DNA of 38,002 nucleotides, taken from positions 1 to 38,002 of the forward strand of contig CANQSU010000004.1 of the NCBI GenBank assembly GCA_947626585.1, given 5' to 3'. Within the stretch, counting starts at the first letter, position 1, and each line of letters opens with the position of its first letter. This DNA comes from an uncultured Oscillospiraceae bacterium. Its GTDB lineage: Bacteria; Bacillota; Clostridia; Oscillospirales; Oscillospiraceae. Position numbers and translations under genes: made by a program. A model generated the notes under the pieces. It saw nothing but the letters and a program-made list of their open reading frames with translations. It searched no databases and was not told the origin of the DNA. Positions 14,191-32,194 of this stretch are shown one piece after another.

Positions 14191-14562
14191 ATGAGTTACC
14201 GTCAGGACGCAGTGAAAGAGAAGTTTGAGAAAGTCACGGTGCTGGGCAAGCCCATGCTGTTCACCTGTCTGCGGATAGATCGCGCTACTGTTCCAAAAGG
14301 TCTGTATATGTACGAGGTACGGCACGATGACGATATGCGCGGCGATCCGGTGCAAATCGCCAGATGGATCATGGTGAACCATTTGGGAACGTTGATTTCC
14401 AGCGAACCGCTCAAACTTGTGCCGAGCAAAACTATAAATAATGCCTACCTGGACATTGACCCGGAAAAGGACTGGAACTATGAGGGTGTACTCTCCACCG
14501 TATCGGAATACATGGCGAAACACCCGCCGAAAAAGGTAAAGCACCGAGATTTTGAGCGTTAG
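14191..14562 (+). CDS. LPD28-like domain protein
   Basis: VKEKFEKVTVLGKPMLFTCLRIDRATVPKGLYMYEVRHDDDMRGDPVQIARWIMVNHLGTLISSEPL resembles large polyvalent protein-associated domain 28. Confidence 0.7.
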   Translation: MSYRQDAVKEKFEKVTVLGKPMLFTCLRIDRATVPKGLYMYEVRHDDDMRGDPVQIARWIMVNHLGTLISSEPLKLVPSKTINNAYLDIDPEKDWNYEGVLSTVSEYMAKHPPKKVKHRDFER

Positions 14563-14578: not shown

Positions 14579-17500
14579 ATGGCGAAACGAATCGACCTAT
14601 TGGCCGAGCTGTACCAGCGGACGCAGCGGGAAGTGACCGCGCCCCAGGAGTGGCAGCGGTTTTTGGCCTCCGCCTGCCGCAACTACCGGCTTCCCTTTGA
14701 GGAACAGCTTTTGGTCTATGCCCAGCGCCCAGACGCCACCGCCGTGCTGGAGATCGAGCGATGGAACAGGCGGTTTGGGCGCTGGGTCAACCGGGGAGCC
14801 ACCGGCATCCCCGTCTTTGACCGGGACTATGAGGGTCGGTCCCGGCTCAAATACTACTTCGACATTTCCGACACCCACCCCGGACGCTTCAGCCGGCCCG
14901 TGCCCATCTGGGCCATGCGCCCGGCGTATGAAGCCGAGGTCACGGAAACGCTGGAAAACGGCTTCGGAGAGTTGGAGAACAAGGACACCTTCGCACAGGC
15001 GCTCATTTCCGCGGCAAAAAACGCGGTTCTGGACAACATGCCGGACTATCTTTCTGAACTGCGGCAATTTACGGCGGACAGTTTTCTGGAAGATCTGGAC
15101 GATCTCAATGTAGAGGTCCTCTATCGGAACACGCTCCAAAACAGTATCGCGTATATGCTCCTGACCCGGTGCGGACAGGACACCGGCGACTACTTCGACG
15201 ACGATGATTTTCGCGGCGTGATCAATTTCAACACCCATGATACGCTGAACGCTCTTGGTAAGGCCACCAGCGACATTGGGCAGATGTGCCTTTCGGAGAT
15301 CGCCCGGACCGCTCTTGATCTGCAAAAAGAGGCGGAAAAATCAAATCGCACATTTGCGTTGGAGCCGGAATGGGAATATGCTGTCCCCAGAACAACAAAT
15401 CAGACGCCAGAAAGGAGCGCAGACGATGAACGAGATAGGCTACACGATGGTGAACGGGTACAGGATACCGAACTATCTGCCGCACCAGGAGCCGGAGATC
15501 CAGCTTGGGAAGTACGCGCTTCTGCGCCGGAGGTTTCTGAAGCAGAGCCGACCCATAACCTTTACGAATCTTCTGACCAGCGGGAAGCTGAATCCGCACC
15601 TGATGGAGATCGACCGGACAGCGCGGACCAGAGTGGAGCAGATCACGGAGCAGATGGCGAGAGCCGAGGGCGTGACGGAGGAACTGAAAGCCCGCGACCA
15701 GATGAAGTGGGCGGGCCTGATGAACAACATCAAGCAGGCGGCGGAGGAAATGGTACTCCAGGAACTGATCTACGCATAACCAATGTCGTGGCCGAGAGCG
15801 CGAGGGGCAGTGAGCTCCCCGCGCTTTTGGATGAAGAGCCCATTATGACCCTGCTTGCCAACCGGGAGAACGACCTCATCTTCACGAAAGAGCAGATAGA
15901 GCTTTTCTTCTCTCTGCATCCCGATATTAACGACCGGACCGAATATATCCGGCAGGCATACCCTTACCGGTTCACCGAGGCGATCATAGACGGCGAGCGT
16001 TATGGATATGTAGCCCAGGATGACGGCCTTGTGATGTGGGCCGGGTCCTACACATCCCCCACACACCAATCCCTGTTTTCCTGGGGGATCATCGCCGAAT
16101 GGATGGGCCAGCTCATAAACCGGCGGGAATACGGCGTCAATACCAGCGCCAAGAAGCTGCCGCCCCAGGATGACCAGCAGATGACCATGTTCGGCTTCGG
16201 CGGCGAGGAACCGGGATCGTCGTTGGCTGACGCGCAGTTTTCCTTCCTGTCCGACCTCCGCCTGCCTCAGCAGGTCATTGACGAGGCCATGTGCATCGGA
16301 GCAAATCGCGAGAACAGCCGCCTTGCCATCTGCGCATGGTTTATGAAGGACAAGCCGTTAGAGGATAACGCCGTGTTCCTCCGGGAGCATTACGGCACCA
16401 ATGGCGCGGGCTTTTATCTGAACGACCGGCAGTATTCAATATGGTACACCCCGGACGGCATCCGCATAGACACCGGCGATACCGCCCAACGCCCCGGCGC
16501 TACCACGCTCACTTGGAAGGAGGCCGCGAGGCGTATCCGGGAGCTGCTGGATCTGGGCCGGTATATGCCCCAACGGGAGGTTGACCAAGCGGCATCCCAC
16601 GAGCGCAAAGAACTGGCGAACAAGCTATTGTATCTCTGCCGGGATTTTGAGGAGGATTTCAGAGACAAATTTCTCCCCGTGTCCATGTCCATCCACAACA
16701 CCAATCTTGGGTTCCCGGAAGAAAGCGCCGCCATCCAATCCCTGCTGGAGCAGCCGGAAAGCTTGCAGCTCCTTGTGGATGAGGTGCGCGTGTTCGCGGA
16801 CGCCTATGACGAAAACCGGGATATTCTCCGCTTCCACTATCACAGACCGCGAGAACTGCTGCAGCGGCTCACCGACCTACAAAGGGAGCCGGTCATCTTC
16901 ACCGCCGCCGAGGGCCACGACCCTCAACGGCGGTTTTTCATTACCGGCGACGAGATAGATAAGCAGCTCCGGGGGAGTACGGAATATCGCCTCGGCGTGT
17001 ATGCTTATTTTCTGGCCCATCCAGACCACGAAGAACGCCGGAAGTATCTGAAAAAAGTCCACGGCGAGTACAGCGGTTCCTACAATGGCATCGACAACAC
17101 CACCTGGACAAGCAAGGGCCTCTCTTTCAGCCACGGCTCCATAACGGCCCCATACGCAAAAGTGGAACTGTCGTGGCCGAAGATAGAAAAGCGCATCTCC
17201 GTCATGATCGACGCCGGGGCATTTCTGGACGATGAGGATCGGGCCGCCATGCCCGACTATGAGCGTGAGCAGCTTGCGCGGGAGATCTACCACTTTTTCT
17301 CCAATGCGCCCGCTATCTTTGAGCGGCCATATCCCCGTGATATGTATTTTACCGACGCCGTGGGGCTTATCGCCAGAGCATTGAACGACCCCTCAGAAGT
17401 CGATGTGCTCTATGAAATGATGCTCCGACTGCGGGTAAGTACGGACCCGGAGGACCGCGACCATGACAGCCGGGAGCAGGCGTTCATCAACCTCTCCGCA

Positions 17501-20500
17501 TACCGCGACGGCACGTTCTCCCTGTTCGGAGAGAAAAAACAGCCCGTCATGGTGCATGGCACGATGGTCACGACGCGGGAAGAATCGGACCCATACCCGG
17601 ACTTGGCCGAGAATATTTTGCGGCTTTTCCAAGCATTTGACGGTTCGACCTATCTGGAAACTCTGCAACAGCCAGACGAGGCCGCCGCGCTGGAATCTTT
17701 GGAGCAGCGGCTCCATGACCCCACCCAGCGCGACATGATAACAGAGCAGCTTCGCGCCTTTCTTGACCACGCCGATCCGAATGAGGAAATATACGGTGAT
17801 CTGGAGATTGCGCTGGAGATACTGGCCGAGCTTTCAGACCGGGACGCGGAGCCGGAGCGATCCGAGGATGATTTTTCAGATATAGACCCCGCTGCTGTCC
17901 GGGAGGAGCTTGCCAAATCCGGGATCGTGGATGGCAAGGTCGTGGACCCGGACGCTCTCAATGCCAGCCCGTTTATTCAGACGGTGCGGCGAGATGTCAG
18001 TTCGGCAGCAGATACGCAAAAGCAGGAGGTCATATCCCGCGAGGCGGAGCTGGCCCACGATATACTGCATTTCTATCAGGAGTTCGACGGCGGCGAGTAC
18101 ATGGAATCGCTGGGCGTATCTACCTATGACGAGGCCACGGTCAAGACCCGGCAGGCGCTGCGGACGCCGGAGGGACTGGCGCAGATCGTTTTCGTCCTTG
18201 AATCATTCCTCAACGCGGATGACGCGCCGGACGAGATATACGACGAACTGGGGCATACCATAGAGGTCCTCCGGCAGATGGAGGAGGAACTGTCCCCCCA
18301 GATGGAACTGGCCAAGAATCTCATCAACGAATACTGCCAGGAGGAATTTGACAGCGATGGTGACTACTCCGACCTAACCAAAGTGGGCGTGGCATACACC
18401 ACGTCGGAGGATGAGGCTCATACAATACAGGTCAGCGTTGACCTCATCGGCTGGTCCCTGGACTTTTATGTGGACAACAAGTTGGTACACCAGCGTGTAT
18501 ATGGTTCCCTCCAGGAACTCATAGACAGAGAACTGTACCGTCTGGACTTCAACGAACTCATGGACGTGCCTCTCCCGGAAGAGGAACCGGAGCTTGAGGC
18601 CCCGGCCAGCGGGCCGGGGCGACTGCCCGAAAAAGAAATGGAGGGCAGGCAGCCGGGGACAGCCTATGCCCTGGGCTACGCTCACATGGGCAACGGCCTT
18701 ACCGTCTGGAACCGCCTGCGGATGGTGGACGGGGACTATCAGACCGTGGCCCATATTGCGCCGGACCGCTCCGTGAAGATCTACGACGAGGCTATGCCGG
18801 ATGATGTGCGGCGGCGGATCTACGATATAGCCGCCACCTCGGACGCCAGAATATCCGAGACGCAGGACGCCCCCGTGTTCTCCACACCGCCCCAGGTGCG
18901 GGAGCCGGTCACGCCGCAGGCCCCCGTAGATGAGCAGACCGAGGCCATCCCTGCGCCACCGCCCAGGCGGGAGCGCGTCACGTTCACCACCCTCCGCCCG
19001 GAGATACCGGCAGACCAGCGCCGCAACTTCCGTATCACCGACCCACAGCTTGGTTACGGCACCCCCAGCGAGAAGTTCGCTGCCAATGCCGCGGCCATCC
19101 GCACCCTGAAGCGCATCGAGGCCGAGGAACGCCTCGCCACGCCGGAGGAACAGGAGGTCCTTTCCCGGTATGTGGGCTGGGGCGGCCTCGCGGACTGCTT
19201 CGACGAGCGCCACAGCAGGTATCAGGAACTGAAAAGCCTTCTCACCGAGGACGAATACGCGGCGGCCAGGGCCAGCTCCCTGACCGCTTTTTATACGTCC
19301 CCGGTCATCATCGAGGCCATGTATAAGGCTCTGGCCCAGATGGGCTTTCAGTCCGGCAACATCCTGGAGCCCGCCTGCGGCGTCGGCAACTTCATCGGCA
19401 TGATTCCGGACGATATGGCCGCCAGCCGTGCCTATGGCGTGGAGATCGACAGCATATCGGGCCGTATCGCCCAGCAACTCTACCAGAACAGCAGCATTTC
19501 CGTCAACGGCTTTGAAAAGGTGCAGATGCCGGACAGCTTCTTCGACGTGGCCATCGGCAATGTGCCCTTTGGGGACCTGCGGGTGGCGGATCGGAAGTAC
19601 GACAAGCACCATTGGCTCATCCACGACTACTTCTTCGGCAAGGCGCTGGACAAGGTGCGCCCCGGCGGGATCATCGCGTTCATCTCCAGCAAGGGCACGA
19701 TGGACAAGGAGAGCAGCGCCTTTCGGAAGTATCTGGCCCAGCGCGCCGACCTCATCGGAGCCATCCGTCTGCCGGACAATGCCTTCAAACGCAACGCCGG
19801 CACAGAAGTCACATCCGACATCATCTTCCTGCAAAAGCGGGACCGGCTCACGGATATAGAGCCGGATTGGGTGCATCTGGATAACACCGAGGATGGTATC
19901 CGCATGAACAGCTATTTTGTCCAGCACCCGGAGATGGTGCTGGGCAATATGGTCATGCAGTCCACCCGCTTCGGCATGGACAGCGCCTGCAAAGCCTACG
20001 AGGGCGCCGATCTGTCTCAGCTTCTGGCCGAGGCCGTCGCCAACCTCCACGCCGAGATCACCGCCTACGAGCAGGACGAGCTGGACGAGGAACAAGATGA
20101 ATCCATCCCCGCCGACCCCACCGTGCGCAATTTCAGCTTCACCGTCGTAGACGGCAGGATCTATTTCCGCGAAAACTCCGTCATGCGCCCGGTCAAGACC
20201 TCCGCCACGGCGGAGAACCGCATCCGGGGCATGATCGCCCTCCGGGACTGTGTGCGCCGCCTCATCGAGCTGCAAACGGAGAACTACCCGGACAGCGAGA
20301 TCGAGGCAGAGCAGCGCAGGCTAAACAGCCTCTACGATAGCTTCGTGAGAAAGTACGACCGGCTCAATACCCGCGGCAACCGTCTGGCCTTTGAGGACGA
20401 TTCCAGCTACTATCTGCTGTGTTCCCTGGAGGTGTACGACAAGGAGAACAAATTTGAGCGCAAGGCCGATATGTTCACCAAGCGCACCATCCGGCCCCAT

Positions 20501-23500
20501 GAGCCTGTCACCCATGTGGACACGTCGGCGGAGGCCCTGGCCGTGTCCATCACCGAGAGGGCCCGCGTGGATATGGCCTTTATGTCCGAGCTGTCCGGCA
20601 AGACCCCGGAGGAACTGGAAAACGAGCTGGACGGGGTTATCTTTCGGGCGGTGGACTGCGCCGAGGACCCCAAGGATATTTCGGAGGCCCAAAAGGACAT
20701 GAGCCTCTACCCGCTGGTGCCCGCTGACGAGTACCTGTCCGGGAACGTGCGGAAGAAGCTCCGCATGGCCAGGGCCATGCGGGACGCTTTACCGCCCGAA
20801 GAACAAAGCCGGCTGGACCGGAACGTGGCCGCGCTGGAGGCGGTGCAGCCGCCCGACCTGTCCGCCGGGGAGATCGGCGTCCGCATCGGTGCAAGCTGGG
20901 TCCCCATATCGGACTATGAGGATTTCATGTTTGAGTTGTTCGGGACATCCTATTATGCACAGCAGAAGATCAAGATCACCCATTCCAGGTTCAGCGGCGA
21001 GTGGACCATCTCCAACAAGACCTATGACCGGGTGAACATCAAGATCCGCACCACCTACGGCACGGACAGGGTGAACGCTTACCGTATATTCGAGCAGACC
21101 CTTAATCAGAAGGACGTGCGGGTGTTCGACTATGTGGAGGACCCCCTCACCGGGAAGAAGAACGCTGTGTTCAACGCTAAACAGACGGCCATCGCCCAGG
21201 ACCGGCAGGAGCTTATCAAGCAGAAATTTCAGGAATGGATATGGCGGGACATTGACCGCCGCGAGAGGCTGTGCCATATTTACAATGAGACTTTCAATTC
21301 CATCCGGCCACGCGAGTATGACGGCTCCCACCTGACGTTTCCCGGCATGAACCCGGAGATCACGCTGCGGCCCCATCAGGTCAACGCCATCGCCCATGTC
21401 ATCTACGGCGGCAATACGCTTCTGGCCCACGAGGTGGGCGCGGGCAAGACCTACGAGATGGCTGCAGCCGCGATGGAGATGAAGCGGCTGGGCCTGTGTA
21501 CCAAGTCCCTGTTCGTGGTGCCCAACCACATCACCGGCCAATGGGCTTCCGAGTTTCTGCAGCTCTACCCCGCGGCGAATCTGCTGGTGGTCACGAAAAA
21601 GGATTTTGAAACGGCCAACCGGAAGAAGATATGCGCCCGGATCGCCACCGGCGACTATGACGCCGTTATCATCGGCCACAGCCAGCTTGAAAAGATCCCC
21701 ATGTCCGTGGCGCGTCAGCGGCTGCTCATTATGAAGCAGCTTGACGAGATTACAGACGCGATAAAAGAGGCACGGAAAGAAGATGGAACCCCGCGGTACT
21801 CCATCAAGCAGATGGAAAAAACGAAGCACTCCCTGGAAACGCGGCTGGAACGGCTCAACGATACCACGCGGAAAGACAATGTGGTGGACTTTGAGGAGCT
21901 GGGCATAGACCGCCTGTTCGTGGACGAAAGCCATTATTTCAAAAACCTCTACGTCGTTTCAAAAATGCGGAACGTAGGCGGTATATCCCAGACGGACGCC
22001 CAAAAGTCCAGCGACCTGTTTATGAAAACGCAGTATCTGGACGAGTTGACAGACCATCGTGGGACCATTTTCGCCACCGGCACACCCATCTCGAACAGTA
22101 TGGTAGAGTTGTATACCATCCAGCGATACATCCAGTATCAGGTGCTGCAGGATATGGGCCTCGTCTTTTTCGACGATTGGGCGTCGAGCTTCGGGGAAAC
22201 AATTACCGCCATAGAGCTTGCACCAGAAGGCACCGGCTACCGGGCCAAGACGCGCTTTGCTAAATTTTACAACCTCCCGGAGCTGATGAGCACGTTCAAG
22301 ATGGCGGCGGACATCCAGACCGCCGATATGCTCAAGCTCCCCGTACCCAAGGCCAACTTCCACACCGAGGTCATTTCCCCATCCGAACTGCAGCAGGAAA
22401 TGGTAGCTGGACTGGCGGAACGGGCGGAAGAGATACGGAAAGGCCATGTTGACCCTACGGTGGACAATATGCTCCGCGTTACCAACGACGGCAGAAAGCT
22501 GGCGCTGGATATGCGGCTGGTGCAGCCTCTTGCCCCGGATGACCCGGACGGCAAAGTGGCCAGATGCGCCAAGAATGTCTTTCAGATATGGGAGCAGACC
22601 AGGGACCGGCGCAGCGCTCAGCTCGTTTTCTGCGACCTTTCCACACCCCGGAAAGACGGCGGCTTTGACGTATACAACGACCTGAAACAGAAGCTCATGG
22701 AAAAAGGTGTCCCGGAGAATGAGATCGCGTTCATCCACGACGCGGATACGGATGTGCGAAAGCAGGCTCTGTTCGCCAAGGTCCGGGCCGGGACGGTGCG
22801 CGTCCTCATGGGCAGCACACAGAAGATGGGCGCTGGCACCAACTGCCAGGACCGGCTCATCGCGCTCCATGACCTTGACTGCCCCTGGCGGCCCTCCGAT
22901 CTGGCCCAGCGCCTGGGCCGCATCGTCCGTCAGGGCAACACCAACCCGGAAGTAGAGGTTTTCCGTTACGTCACCGAGGGCACCTTCGACAGCTATTTGT
23001 ATCAGCTTGTGGAGAACAAGCAGCGGTTCATCTCCCAGATCATGACCAGCAAGACCCCCGCCCGCGTCGCGGATGATGTGGATGAAACCGCGCTGTCCTA
23101 TGCCGAGATCAAGGCTCTGGCCACCGGCAACCCGCTTATCATAGAAAAATGCGAGCTGGAGATGGAGGTCAGCAAGCTGCAAATGCTCAAAGCGGCCTAT
23201 CTGAACCAGAGGTACTCTTTGGAAAGCATGGTGCTGCGGACCTATCCCGCAAAAATCGCGGAGCTGACGGAGAAGATAGCCGGATACACCGCCGACGGAC
23301 AGACCGCCGAGGCCCATCCCAAGCCCAAGGAGGGCTTCGTGGGCATGGTCATAGACGGCGTGACCGTCACCGACAAGGAGCAGGCGGGCAAGGCTATTCT
23401 CACCAAATGCACCACCATGACAGGCACGGAAACGGGCGTGTTCGGCCAGTACCGGGGCTTTGACGTGTATATATCCTTTGAACGCCTGACCAGAGATTAC

Positions 23501-23833
23501 CGGCTGGCCTTGAAAGGTGAGCTGTCCCATGAAGTCGTGCTGGGCGCGGATGTGTTCGGCAACTTCACCCGTATGGATAACGTGATAGAGAGGTTCGCGG
23601 AACGGCTCAAAGAAACGAAAGAGGCGCTGCAGGAGGCCCGCCACCAGCTGGACAATGCCCGTACAGAGCTGGAGGCCCCGTTTGCCAGAGAGGAGGAATT
23701 GACCGAAAAATCCAAGCGGCTCAATGAGCTGAACGTGCTGCTGAACCTGGACCAGAAGGACAAAACGCTCATAGACGATGCGCCCGATGAGGACGCGCCG
23801 GAGCGCGGCAGAAGCCGGGACTACGAGCGGTGA
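14579..23833 (+). CDS. Giant ICE polyprotein: N6-DNA methylase-like plus SNF2/DEAD helicase
   Basis: 3084 aa; YVGWGGLADCFD, NILEPACGVGNFIGMIP (SAM-binding), AIGNVPFGD (NPPF/Y-like), LLAHEVGAGKTYEM (Walker A), RLFVDESHYFKNL (DExH), ATGTPISNSMVELYT, QRLGRIVRQGN (motif VI). Confidence 0.93.
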   Translation: MAKRIDLLAELYQRTQREVTAPQEWQRFLASACRNYRLPFEEQLLVYAQRPDATAVLEIERWNRRFGRWVNRGATGIPVFDRDYEGRSRLKYYFDISDTHPGRFSRPVPIWAMRPAYEAEVTETLENGFGELENKDTFAQALISAAKNAVLDNMPDYLSELRQFTADSFLEDLDDLNVEVLYRNTLQNSIAYMLLTRCGQDTGDYFDDDDFRGVINFNTHDTLNALGKATSDIGQMCLSEIARTALDLQKEAEKSNRTFALEPEWEYAVPRTTNQTPERSADDERDRLHDGERVQDTELSAAPGAGDPAWEVRASAPEVSEAEPTHNLYESSDQREAESAPDGDRPDSADQSGADHGADGESRGRDGGTESPRPDEVGGPDEQHQAGGGGNGTPGTDLRITNVVAESARGSELPALLDEEPIMTLLANRENDLIFTKEQIELFFSLHPDINDRTEYIRQAYPYRFTEAIIDGERYGYVAQDDGLVMWAGSYTSPTHQSLFSWGIIAEWMGQLINRREYGVNTSAKKLPPQDDQQMTMFGFGGEEPGSSLADAQFSFLSDLRLPQQVIDEAMCIGANRENSRLAICAWFMKDKPLEDNAVFLREHYGTNGAGFYLNDRQYSIWYTPDGIRIDTGDTAQRPGATTLTWKEAARRIRELLDLGRYMPQREVDQAASHERKELANKLLYLCRDFEEDFRDKFLPVSMSIHNTNLGFPEESAAIQSLLEQPESLQLLVDEVRVFADAYDENRDILRFHYHRPRELLQRLTDLQREPVIFTAAEGHDPQRRFFITGDEIDKQLRGSTEYRLGVYAYFLAHPDHEERRKYLKKVHGEYSGSYNGIDNTTWTSKGLSFSHGSITAPYAKVELSWPKIEKRISVMIDAGAFLDDEDRAAMPDYEREQLAREIYHFFSNAPAIFERPYPRDMYFTDAVGLIARALNDPSEVDVLYEMMLRLRVSTDPEDRDHDSREQAFINLSAYRDGTFSLFGEKKQPVMVHGTMVTTREESDPYPDLAENILRLFQAFDGSTYLETLQQPDEAAALESLEQRLHDPTQRDMITEQLRAFLDHADPNEEIYGDLEIALEILAELSDRDAEPERSEDDFSDIDPAAVREELAKSGIVDGKVVDPDALNASPFIQTVRRDVSSAADTQKQEVISREAELAHDILHFYQEFDGGEYMESLGVSTYDEATVKTRQALRTPEGLAQIVFVLESFLNADDAPDEIYDELGHTIEVLRQMEEELSPQMELAKNLINEYCQEEFDSDGDYSDLTKVGVAYTTSEDEAHTIQVSVDLIGWSLDFYVDNKLVHQRVYGSLQELIDRELYRLDFNELMDVPLPEEEPELEAPASGPGRLPEKEMEGRQPGTAYALGYAHMGNGLTVWNRLRMVDGDYQTVAHIAPDRSVKIYDEAMPDDVRRRIYDIAATSDARISETQDAPVFSTPPQVREPVTPQAPVDEQTEAIPAPPPRRERVTFTTLRPEIPADQRRNFRITDPQLGYGTPSEKFAANAAAIRTLKRIEAEERLATPEEQEVLSRYVGWGGLADCFDERHSRYQELKSLLTEDEYAAARASSLTAFYTSPVIIEAMYKALAQMGFQSGNILEPACGVGNFIGMIPDDMAASRAYGVEIDSISGRIAQQLYQNSSISVNGFEKVQMPDSFFDVAIGNVPFGDLRVADRKYDKHHWLIHDYFFGKALDKVRPGGIIAFISSKGTMDKESSAFRKYLAQRADLIGAIRLPDNAFKRNAGTEVTSDIIFLQKRDRLTDIEPDWVHLDNTEDGIRMNSYFVQHPEMVLGNMVMQSTRFGMDSACKAYEGADLSQLLAEAVANLHAEITAYEQDELDEEQDESIPADPTVRNFSFTVVDGRIYFRENSVMRPVKTSATAENRIRGMIALRDCVRRLIELQTENYPDSEIEAEQRRLNSLYDSFVRKYDRLNTRGNRLAFEDDSSYYLLCSLEVYDKENKFERKADMFTKRTIRPHEPVTHVDTSAEALAVSITERARVDMAFMSELSGKTPEELENELDGVIFRAVDCAEDPKDISEAQKDMSLYPLVPADEYLSGNVRKKLRMARAMRDALPPEEQSRLDRNVAALEAVQPPDLSAGEIGVRIGASWVPISDYEDFMFELFGTSYYAQQKIKITHSRFSGEWTISNKTYDRVNIKIRTTYGTDRVNAYRIFEQTLNQKDVRVFDYVEDPLTGKKNAVFNAKQTAIAQDRQELIKQKFQEWIWRDIDRRERLCHIYNETFNSIRPREYDGSHLTFPGMNPEITLRPHQVNAIAHVIYGGNTLLAHEVGAGKTYEMAAAAMEMKRLGLCTKSLFVVPNHITGQWASEFLQLYPAANLLVVTKKDFETANRKKICARIATGDYDAVIIGHSQLEKIPMSVARQRLLIMKQLDEITDAIKEARKEDGTPRYSIKQMEKTKHSLETRLERLNDTTRKDNVVDFEELGIDRLFVDESHYFKNLYVVSKMRNVGGISQTDAQKSSDLFMKTQYLDELTDHRGTIFATGTPISNSMVELYTIQRYIQYQVLQDMGLVFFDDWASSFGETITAIELAPEGTGYRAKTRFAKFYNLPELMSTFKMAADIQTADMLKLPVPKANFHTEVISPSELQQEMVAGLAERAEEIRKGHVDPTVDNMLRVTNDGRKLALDMRLVQPLAPDDPDGKVARCAKNVFQIWEQTRDRRSAQLVFCDLSTPRKDGGFDVYNDLKQKLMEKGVPENEIAFIHDADTDVRKQALFAKVRAGTVRVLMGSTQKMGAGTNCQDRLIALHDLDCPWRPSDLAQRLGRIVRQGNTNPEVEVFRYVTEGTFDSYLYQLVENKQRFISQIMTSKTPARVADDVDETALSYAEIKALATGNPLIIEKCELEMEVSKLQMLKAAYLNQRYSLESMVLRTYPAKIAELTEKIAGYTADGQTAEAHPKPKEGFVGMVIDGVTVTDKEQAGKAILTKCTTMTGTETGVFGQYRGFDVYISFERLTRDYRLALKGELSHEVVLGADVFGNFTRMDNVIERFAERLKETKEALQEARHQLDNARTELEAPFAREEELTEKSKRLNELNVLLNLDQKDKTLIDDAPDEDAPERGRSRDYER
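15426..15779 (+). CDS. tnpV: TnpV-family transposon-encoded protein, overprinted in the +1 frame of the helicase gene
   Basis: 117 aa MNEIGYTMVNGYRIPNYLPHQEPEIQLGKYALLRRRFLKQSRP…LTSGKLNPHLMEIDRTARTRVEQITEQMARAEGVTEELKARDQMKWAGLMNNIKQAAEEMVLQELIYA; own SD AAAGGAG at 15411-15417, about 8 nt from ATG. Confidence 0.85.
   Translation: MNEIGYTMVNGYRIPNYLPHQEPEIQLGKYALLRRRFLKQSRPITFTNLLTSGKLNPHLMEIDRTARTRVEQITEQMARAEGVTEELKARDQMKWAGLMNNIKQAAEEMVLQELIYA
17598..18288 (+). repeat. Internal domain duplication in the helicase polyprotein
   Basis: DLAENILRLFQAFDGSTYLETLQ…LRAFLDHADPNEEIYGDLEIALEILAEL versus ELAHDILHFYQEFDGGEYMESLG…LESFLNADDAPDEIYDELGHTIEVLRQM. Confidence 0.75.
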
Positions 23834-23909: not shown

Positions 23910-24305
23910 TTAAGGCTCACACGGAATAACGCTCTTAGCCCAATCTAAAAGTGCCTTGGCATATTGAAGCGCTTTCTTGGGTCCCTGCTCTCCCAAAATC
24001 ATTTCATTTGGATATCGAACCATCACACCAAATGGGTTCAAATAATCAGCATACGCAAAATAGCGATCATCAATTGTGAACCGCTGTTCAAGACATTGCA
24101 AGAGAAATGAAATGTCATGTTTTTTCGGAACCTCGTCTGTGATGTCTGACGACAGGATCACCGCCTTCACAGCTTTTTCCGCAGCTTGCTGGCAATGGAA
24201 ACAGATGATCTCAGTTGGCATGGGACGGTATACTTCGTAAAGATGCTTTGCTACAGCATAGTCATTCTCCGCGATCTTCATCCACTTACCTGTATTGTCA
24301 GCCAT
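23910..24305 (-). CDS. HEPN-domain protein
   Basis: MADNTGKWMKIAENDYAVAKHLYE…TEIICFHCQQAAEKAVKAVILSSD…KKHDISFLLQ…MVRYPNE…A..YAKALLDWAK; ATG overlaps the MNT stop by 8 nt. Confidence 0.88.
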   Translation of the reverse strand: MADNTGKWMKIAENDYAVAKHLYEVYRPMPTEIICFHCQQAAEKAVKAVILSSDITDEVPKKHDISFLLQCLEQRFTIDDRYFAYADYLNPFGVMVRYPNEMILGEQGPKKALQYAKALLDWAKSVIPCEP

Positions 24306-24618
24306 AAAGAAGCACCCCCTTGCGGTATACTTCTCTCTCAACAGACGGAGTATCCCTGCGGGCTTCGAAGCTGGCTTTCGTGCCGACCAGAATATCGACC
24401 GGGTGCTGTTTGACTTTGCAAATCGCCCTATACGCCTGAACAGTTAAGTCAAAAAGGTTCTCGTCCTTGTCATCAACAACGATGTAAAAATCCAAGTCGC
24501 TGTCTTCTGTGTGGGTCCCGTCCGCATAGGAACCAAACAGATATACCTGCATCGGAGATAGAGACTCCACAAATCGGGTTTTCAGTTCTTCTATTTCATG
24601 TACTGGCACAGGCTTCAC
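24298..24618 (-). CDS. MNT-type nucleotidyltransferase (partner of HEPN protein)
   Basis: VYLFGSYADGTHTEDSDLDFYIVVDD = GSxxxGxxxxxSDxD; GTG annotated start, exact start uncertain. Confidence 0.88.
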   Translation of the reverse strand: MKPVPVHEIEELKTRFVESLSPMQVYLFGSYADGTHTEDSDLDFYIVVDDKDENLFDLTVQAYRAICKVKQHPVDILVGTKASFEARRDTPSVEREVYRKGVLLYG

Positions 24619-24884: not shown

Positions 24885-25199
24885 ATGATCTACACCGTAA
24901 ACGAACTGAAAAAGATAATAACGCCCGTAGCCAGGAGGTACGGCATCCGGGCGGTCTATCTGTTCGGCTCCTATGCCCGTAACGAGGCCACGGAGCAGAG
25001 CGATGTGGATATTCTCATTGACCGCGCAGGCTCGGTAGTCCGTGGCCTGATGATAGGTGCGCTGTACGAGGACATCCGCGCCTGCATCGGAAAGAGGATC
25101 GACCTCGTGACGGTGCAGACCTTGGAGCAGCCCAGCACTAAAGAGCGATGCCCCTCGTTTGTTCAAAATGTGTATGCGGATATGATCCGGCTGATATAA
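24885..25199 (+). CDS. Second, orphan MNT-type nucleotidyltransferase
   Basis: IRAVYLFGSYARNEATEQSDVDILIDRAG; no HEPN gene adjacent on the same strand. Confidence 0.85.
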   Translation: MIYTVNELKKIITPVARRYGIRAVYLFGSYARNEATEQSDVDILIDRAGSVVRGLMIGALYEDIRACIGKRIDLVTVQTLEQPSTKERCPSFVQNVYADMIRLI

Positions 25200-31303: not shown

Positions 31304-32194
31304 ATGAACAACTATGACGACCTCTTTACCTCCGGCGAGGATTTCCGCGAGACGCCCTTTGACAAGGACGCCTGGGCGGAAAAAAAGCAGGCCGAGCGTC
31401 AGGCCGTGTACGAAATGGCGGACGACACCGCCGTGGCCGTCAGCAAGGACGGACCGTACTACCAGCAGTATCTGGATACCCAGGCCCGGTTCCCCAGCTA
31501 CTCCGTGACCAACACGCTGCTCATCATGGCCCAGAATCCCGACGCCACACGGCTCCGGGACTTCGACAGCTGGAAGGACCTGGGCGCGTCCATCAAGAAA
31601 GGCGAGCAGGGTATCTCCATTCTGGAGCCGGGCGCGGAATATGCCCGTGAGGACGGCACCACCGGCACGTCCTACAACGTGAAAAAGGTGTTCGACATCT
31701 CCCAGACCACGGCCCGTTCCCGCCCCCAGCCCCAGACCAAGGTGGACGACCGGACGCTGCTCACCGCCCTCATCCACAAGGCTCCCGTGCCCATGAAGAT
31801 GGTGGACGAGCTGCCCGGAAACAGCGTCGCCCTCTATGACAACGATCAGCAGGTCATCTTTGTGCGCCGGGGCATGGACGCCTATGATCTGTTCCGGGGC
31901 GTCAGCAAGGAACTGGCCCACGCGGAGATAGCCAGGAGCCGGGAGAATTATACGCGCAGCGAGGCCAGCTTCGCCGCCTACTCCGCATCTTATATCCTCT
32001 GCAAGCAGAACAATGTTCCCACCGAGGGCTTCTACAGCTTCAATGTTCTGCCCACGGGTCTTGCGGAGAAAACGCCCCAGGAGCTGCGCGGCGTCCTCTC
32101 CGAGATCCACGATACCGCCAGCAGCATCTCCAACCGTATGTATCGAGTGCTGGAGCAGGCCAAAGCCCCTCGCGTGGCGGAGCAGGAGCGGTGA
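31304..32194 (+). CDS. ArdC/LtrC-like antirestriction-type protein
   Basis: FPSYSVTNTLLIMAQNPDATRLRDFDSWKDLGASIKKGEQGISILEP (ArdC N-terminal-like); degenerate VSKELAHAEIA. Confidence 0.75.
   Translation: MNNYDDLFTSGEDFRETPFDKDAWAEKKQAERQAVYEMADDTAVAVSKDGPYYQQYLDTQARFPSYSVTNTLLIMAQNPDATRLRDFDSWKDLGASIKKGEQGISILEPGAEYAREDGTTGTSYNVKKVFDISQTTARSRPQPQTKVDDRTLLTALIHKAPVPMKMVDELPGNSVALYDNDQQVIFVRRGMDAYDLFRGVSKELAHAEIARSRENYTRSEASFAAYSASYILCKQNNVPTEGFYSFNVLPTGLAEKTPQELRGVLSEIHDTASSISNRMYRVLEQAKAPRVAEQER

Follow-up and report, generated by a model that had tools for sequence, protein, structure and literature searches.

A probable out-of-frame tnpV gene nested in the giant helicase gene of a Bacillota conjugative element

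The DNA analyzed here, referred to as the window, is a stretch of 38,002 nucleotides from an uncultured Oscillospiraceae bacterium. One segment of it very probably encodes two proteins, as judged from comparative sequence analysis. It would encode TnpV in the +1 frame and a linker of a giant helicase in the host frame. Selection keeps the amino acids of TnpV; in the host frame it acts mainly to keep stops out and tolerates almost any hydrophilic linker.

A tnpV ORF inside the helicase gene

The host gene (14579–23833, + strand) is an ORF of 3084 aa. Pfam matched SNF2-rel and ResIII and, weakly, Eco57I and Helicase_C, as in a polyvalent methylase/SNF2-type helicase. The tnpV ORF of 117 aa (15426–15779, + strand) is located entirely within it. 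Its ATG sits on host codon position 2, which places tnpV in the +1 frame. Over its 354 nt, neither the host frame nor the +1 frame contains a stop. A Shine–Dalgarno (SD) sequence, AAAGGAG (15411–15417, + strand), precedes the ATG with a spacing of 8 nt. A sequence-only reading had described this arrangement, and it was confirmed on the sequence.

The same reading had recognized TnpV by eye. The Pfam profile PF14198 bore this out over the full length (E = 6e-41, 139 bits with a cut-off of 27, profile positions 2–111 of 111), together with conservation in homologues and an AlphaFold model. The stop-free +1 stretch holding tnpV is 176 codons long. Other +1 stretches of the same helicase gene reach 162 and 158 codons, nearly equal, and ORF length was dropped as evidence for tnpV. 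What rules chance out is the match to the TnpV family, together with the recurrence of this +1 nesting in 103 of 108 homologous helicases.

The host frame over tnpV (15425–15778, + strand) is disorder-prone. Residues D, E, K, R, S, P, G and Q make up 68.5% of this shadow. The hydrophobic residues I, L, M, F, V, W, Y and C account for 11.9% of nested shadows versus 34.9% of TnpV. The shadow would form a low-complexity linker of the giant polyvalent methylase–helicase.

Nested tnpV in homologous helicases

A protein scan with TnpV yielded 21 loci. In 11 of them, tnpV was inside a helicase homologue, in the same frame and at 39–87% identity; an additional locus (L019) carried a fragment of the same arrangement. 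A first count of stops in nested and free-standing copies was partly circular, as nested copies were defined by openness, and the recount started from the helicase N-domain alone. Profile A1 was built from this N-domain only and searched against 338 genomes of the class and 398 of the phylum. The DNA behind each match was read for a TnpV-like ORF, so that the survey started from the N-domain and not from tnpV.

TnpV-like ORFs were present behind 103 of the 108 distinct N-domains. All 103 were in the +1 frame, and 102 had no host stop across tnpV. Five N-domains had no tnpV behind them: two lay at contig ends, one belonged to a short ArdC-like protein, and in L134 and L136 the gene is truly absent. 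In L134, the distance from the N-domain to the next conserved host motif was 79 aa; elsewhere it was at least 162 aa in the subset where it could be measured. These two absences indicate that tnpV is dispensable in some elements. The A1 seeds all came from nested loci, and the sample leans to helicases like that of the window; nevertheless, distant members lacking or barely keeping tnpV were recovered.

The nested arrangement was also found on Bacilli plasmids, with a strong TnpV match in Cohnella and one of 73 bits in Virgibacillus, and in Ruminococcus albus with a weaker match. Cultured carriers of a nested copy include Fournierella massiliensis DSM 100451 (L013) and Blautia schinkii (L021). 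Five distant helicases (L142–L144, L164 and L147) had weak TnpV-like nested ORFs in the same frame. With matches of 22–33 bits, these ORFs are less certain and may represent a separate TnpV subfamily.

Two copies were damaged. L080 has an intact tnpV, yet a host stop is located inside it. In L123, which is near a contig end, both frames are truncated.

Selection on the two reading frames

Divergence at host codon positions 1, 2 and 3 was determined in 20 close pairs. The values were.098,.074 and.261 in the N-domain,.187,.088 and.066 in the tnpV overlap, and.127,.101 and.291 downstream of tnpV. The fast-evolving site moves from host position 3 to position 1, which is the third position of tnpV, only over tnpV, and then reverts.

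Per-frame rates were obtained with an OLGenie-style count of 15 disjoint pairs. The dN/dS of tnpV was 0.27 (0.21–0.32). The dN/dS of the host was 1.24 (0.96–1.63) at sites where the tnpV change was non-synonymous, and 0.66 (0.45–1.1) where it was synonymous (SN/SS). The latter value is below 1, and weak amino-acid constraint on the host linker is possible.

At high GC, an open shadow frame says little by itself, and rates of mutation classes were therefore used, with free-standing tnpV as controls. The GC-rich free copies L006–L008 have open shadow frames with 0 stops, and openness by itself was set aside as evidence. Low-GC free copies contained on average 7.7 stops in the shadow frame. Among tnpV-silent changes, the rate of host-stop changes relative to host-missense changes was 0.097 (0.013–0.20) in nested copies and 0.80 (0.69–0.93) in the free-standing control. 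These ratios indicate that host stops are purged about tenfold among tnpV-silent changes, only in nested copies, and the purging is also visible at low GC. In nested tnpV, a third-position T occurred ahead of AA, AG or GA codons in 4 of 2705 cases, versus 790 of 5894 ahead of other codons.

Purifying selection was found in both frames. In tnpV it acts on the amino acids; in the host it removes stops, and any effect on amino acids is not clear. By these rates, the host is selected to stay open and the amino acids of its linker are close to free. Since both frames are selectively kept readable across homologues, we consider this true dual coding with a passive-shadow helicase linker. The sequence-only reading had proposed both a gene within a gene and a passive shadow. 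Both proposals held: homologues keep intact tnpV frames, the tnpV frame is constrained, the PF14198 match is strong, so that the conditions which that reading had named as refuting it did not come true, and the hydrophobe-poor shadow evolves near neutrality apart from its missing stops.

It is very improbable that only TnpV is real, with the N-domain and the helicase body made as separate products and the host frame over tnpV not translated as one. Public annotation of the Cohnella and Monoglobus plasmids, from a gene table that is incomplete, has TnpV and no full helicase, as such an arrangement would have it. However, in the records of R. albus and Virgibacillus one helicase is annotated across the region, nearly every host frame is open, and host nonsense changes are purged solely when tnpV is nested, low-GC copies included.

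Initiation of TnpV

Among 76 nested copies, 73 started with ATG. An SD of at least 5 nt was located ahead of 69 of the 76 starts, mostly with a spacing of 8–9 nt. The same was true of 150 of 4115 other +1 ATGs (3.6%) in the same helicases; the choice of nested starts was partly SD-guided, and this comparison somewhat favours the nested copies. With both SD and ATG conserved at nested starts, internal initiation is the simplest mechanism. Ribosomes most likely start TnpV synthesis within the helicase mRNA, at the SD and ATG that belong to tnpV. The sequence-only reading had offered internal initiation as a perhaps; the conserved SD makes it probable.

Alternatively, programmed +1 frameshifting could produce a fusion of the N-domain with TnpV and no internal initiation would be needed. 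The tnpV gene is always in the +1 frame and close after the N-domain, and upstream of the ATG its frame has no stop over a median of 19 codons, both as frameshifting would have it. However, this open stretch is at most 20 codons in 41 of 75 copies, free-standing TnpV begins at the same residue as nested TnpV, and a conserved SD and ATG mark the TnpV start. We regard frameshifting as highly unlikely.

History of nested and free-standing tnpV

Distances between TnpV proteins correlated with those between helicase N-domains (Mantel r = 0.77; none of 2000 permutations was as high), indicating that the two are co-inherited. The nested state is, from its distribution, ancient in the helicase family, across Clostridia and some Bacilli. 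The first nested tnpV may have arisen by an ancient insertion or by overprinting.

The trees rest on about 115 columns, which do not fix the deep forks, the root or the number of escapes. In the TnpV tree, the state changed between nested and free at least 4 times (bootstrap range 4–6). The free group L006–L011 had the window and L004 as its sister (100/98). This grouping falls within a nested clade, and the helicase N-domains of that clade point to the same relatives as TnpV. The free copies L063 and L070 also branched inside a nested clade. These positions suggest escape from the helicase, and at least two escapes to free-standing tnpV (L006–L011 and L063/L070) are probable, the rooting being incomplete. 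A large free clade also fell among nested sequences, in an unrooted tree with weak deep forks. The common free-standing TnpV clade may be derived from nested ones.

The sequence-only reading had supposed the capture of an ancestral tnpV in frame-open orientation. Taken as a recent capture of a free tnpV by this element, that supposition was not supported, given the near-universal nesting, very distant members included, the co-inheritance with the N-domain, and the free groups inside nested clades. Under recent capture, a free tnpV would have happened to land in a frame-open spot of this element, making the overlap accidental and local. In its favour, free-standing TnpV is widespread in the order (some TnpV in 181 of 297 genomes), and the shadow frame of GC-rich copies is naturally almost open. 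On the other side, position and frame are the same in 103 of 108 helicases, distant ones included, the window's TnpV and N-domain share the nested relatives L004/L005, L013 and L012, and only nested copies avoid stops. Recent capture is refuted by these results, and we give it scarcely any probability.

The ancient nesting in the helicase family probably seeded free-standing tnpV. A broader scenario is tentative and, in our estimate, rather unlikely to hold in full. The TnpV family would have arisen inside the helicase gene, by overprinting or one very early insertion, and stayed locked in that gene within the conjugative elements of Bacillota. Several later escapes would then have produced the free TnpV of transposons and resistance islands. 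If so, the helicase gene served as the incubator of a new gene family.

At L008 (2847–4871), by eye, the free-standing tnpV has a ParB gene on one side and HipBA-like genes on the other, and its shadow frame is still open and continues into the downstream gene. In L181 (Streptococcus gallolyticus pSGG1), a free-standing TnpV is immediately upstream of a mosaic tetracycline resistance gene.

Structure and function of TnpV

The 3D structure of TnpV was modeled using AlphaFold. The model, a confident one (mean pLDDT 86.9), shows a bundle of helices with a hairpin at the N-terminus. Foldseek with this model found no significant match in PDB (best E = 6.6) and none in viral libraries, and a sequence search of PDB found no solved relative. 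The PHROGs match was a family of unknown function. PADLOC returned nothing for TnpV.

For TnpV of Tn4451, a part in excision was once postulated on the basis of its homology to lambda Xis (PMC3158075). An Xis-like excision factor for the element's recombinase, with nesting coupling excision to helicase expression, is an unlikely candidate role. Large serine recombinases near free tnpV in 4 of 10 sampled loci would fit it; other free copies adjoin unrelated genes. No Xis or winged-helix relative emerged, since Foldseek gave no significant structure match, and an Xis or recombination directionality factor fold was not supported by the structure and sequence searches of PDB. Somewhat better favoured, though still doubtful, is a small helical accessory of mobility or establishment, made together with the helicase and perhaps acting with the element's recombinase.

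Relation to known systems

In bacteria, a gene nested out of frame within another counts as a rare anomaly (PMC12350097). In this case the nested gene is near-universal in a large family of mobile-element helicases, and selection is visible in both frames, with free-standing paralogues as a natural control. The system offers a clean natural setting in which to study the accommodation of an overlapping gene by a disordered linker. The comS gene inside srfA of Bacillus subtilis is likewise a small same-strand out-of-frame gene in a giant gene (PMC12350097). Unlike that pair, the host here is a mobile-element helicase and the nested family also exists free-standing. In addition, Clostridia and some Bacilli share the conserved overlap, which takes in an entire domain of 117 aa and has a disordered shadow.

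TnpV of Tn4451 and the window's TnpV are members of one family (PF14198), with similarity along the full length. Descriptions of known TnpV genes place them in transposons as free-standing genes, whereas the window's tnpV is inside a helicase gene and not a free-standing gene of a Tn4451-like transposon; the difference is one of context, not of protein family. A literature search, with subscription journals mostly outside its scope, did not turn up any description of TnpV nested in a helicase.

The gene lists inspected lack either the helicase or TnpV. No whole helicase is listed beside TnpV for Cohnella and Monoglobus, and no TnpV beside the helicase for R. albus and Virgibacillus; the PLSDB gene table is incomplete and gives an indication only. 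With one of the two genes dropped from these records, the overlap may have been overlooked.

The host element

The window is a conjugative element with genes for a MobA/VirD2-type relaxase, T4CP, ArdC-N, ParA/ParB, pilins and sortases. Its helicase is a polyvalent protein, with SNF2 and methylase domains in one giant product and relaxase, T4CP and ArdC-N genes in the same window. It shares with the polyvalent proteins of conjugative elements the adenine methylase–SNF2 dyad, a neighbouring LPD28 and possibly an ArdC-N-like N-terminal domain (Iyer et al. 2017, PMC5512222). The portion of that article's text covered by our search mentions neither TnpV nor an overlapping gene.

The conserved N-domain of the helicase (14579–15340, + strand) had no direct Pfam match. 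Profile A1 linked it distantly to ArdC-N, matching a separate ArdC-N protein at 31397–31726 (E = 1.8e-13). This protein (Pfam ArdcN) is encoded at 31304–32194, and it is at its start that it shows the relationship to the helicase N-domain. A stand-alone gene for LPD28, a large-polyvalent-protein-associated domain, is located immediately upstream of the helicase (14191–14562). Directly 3' of the helicase are a HEPN protein and a nucleotidyltransferase, likely a HEPN–MNT toxin–antitoxin pair, and a second nucleotidyltransferase is encoded on the opposite strand; these genes occupy 23910–24618 (− strand) and 24885–25199 (+ strand).
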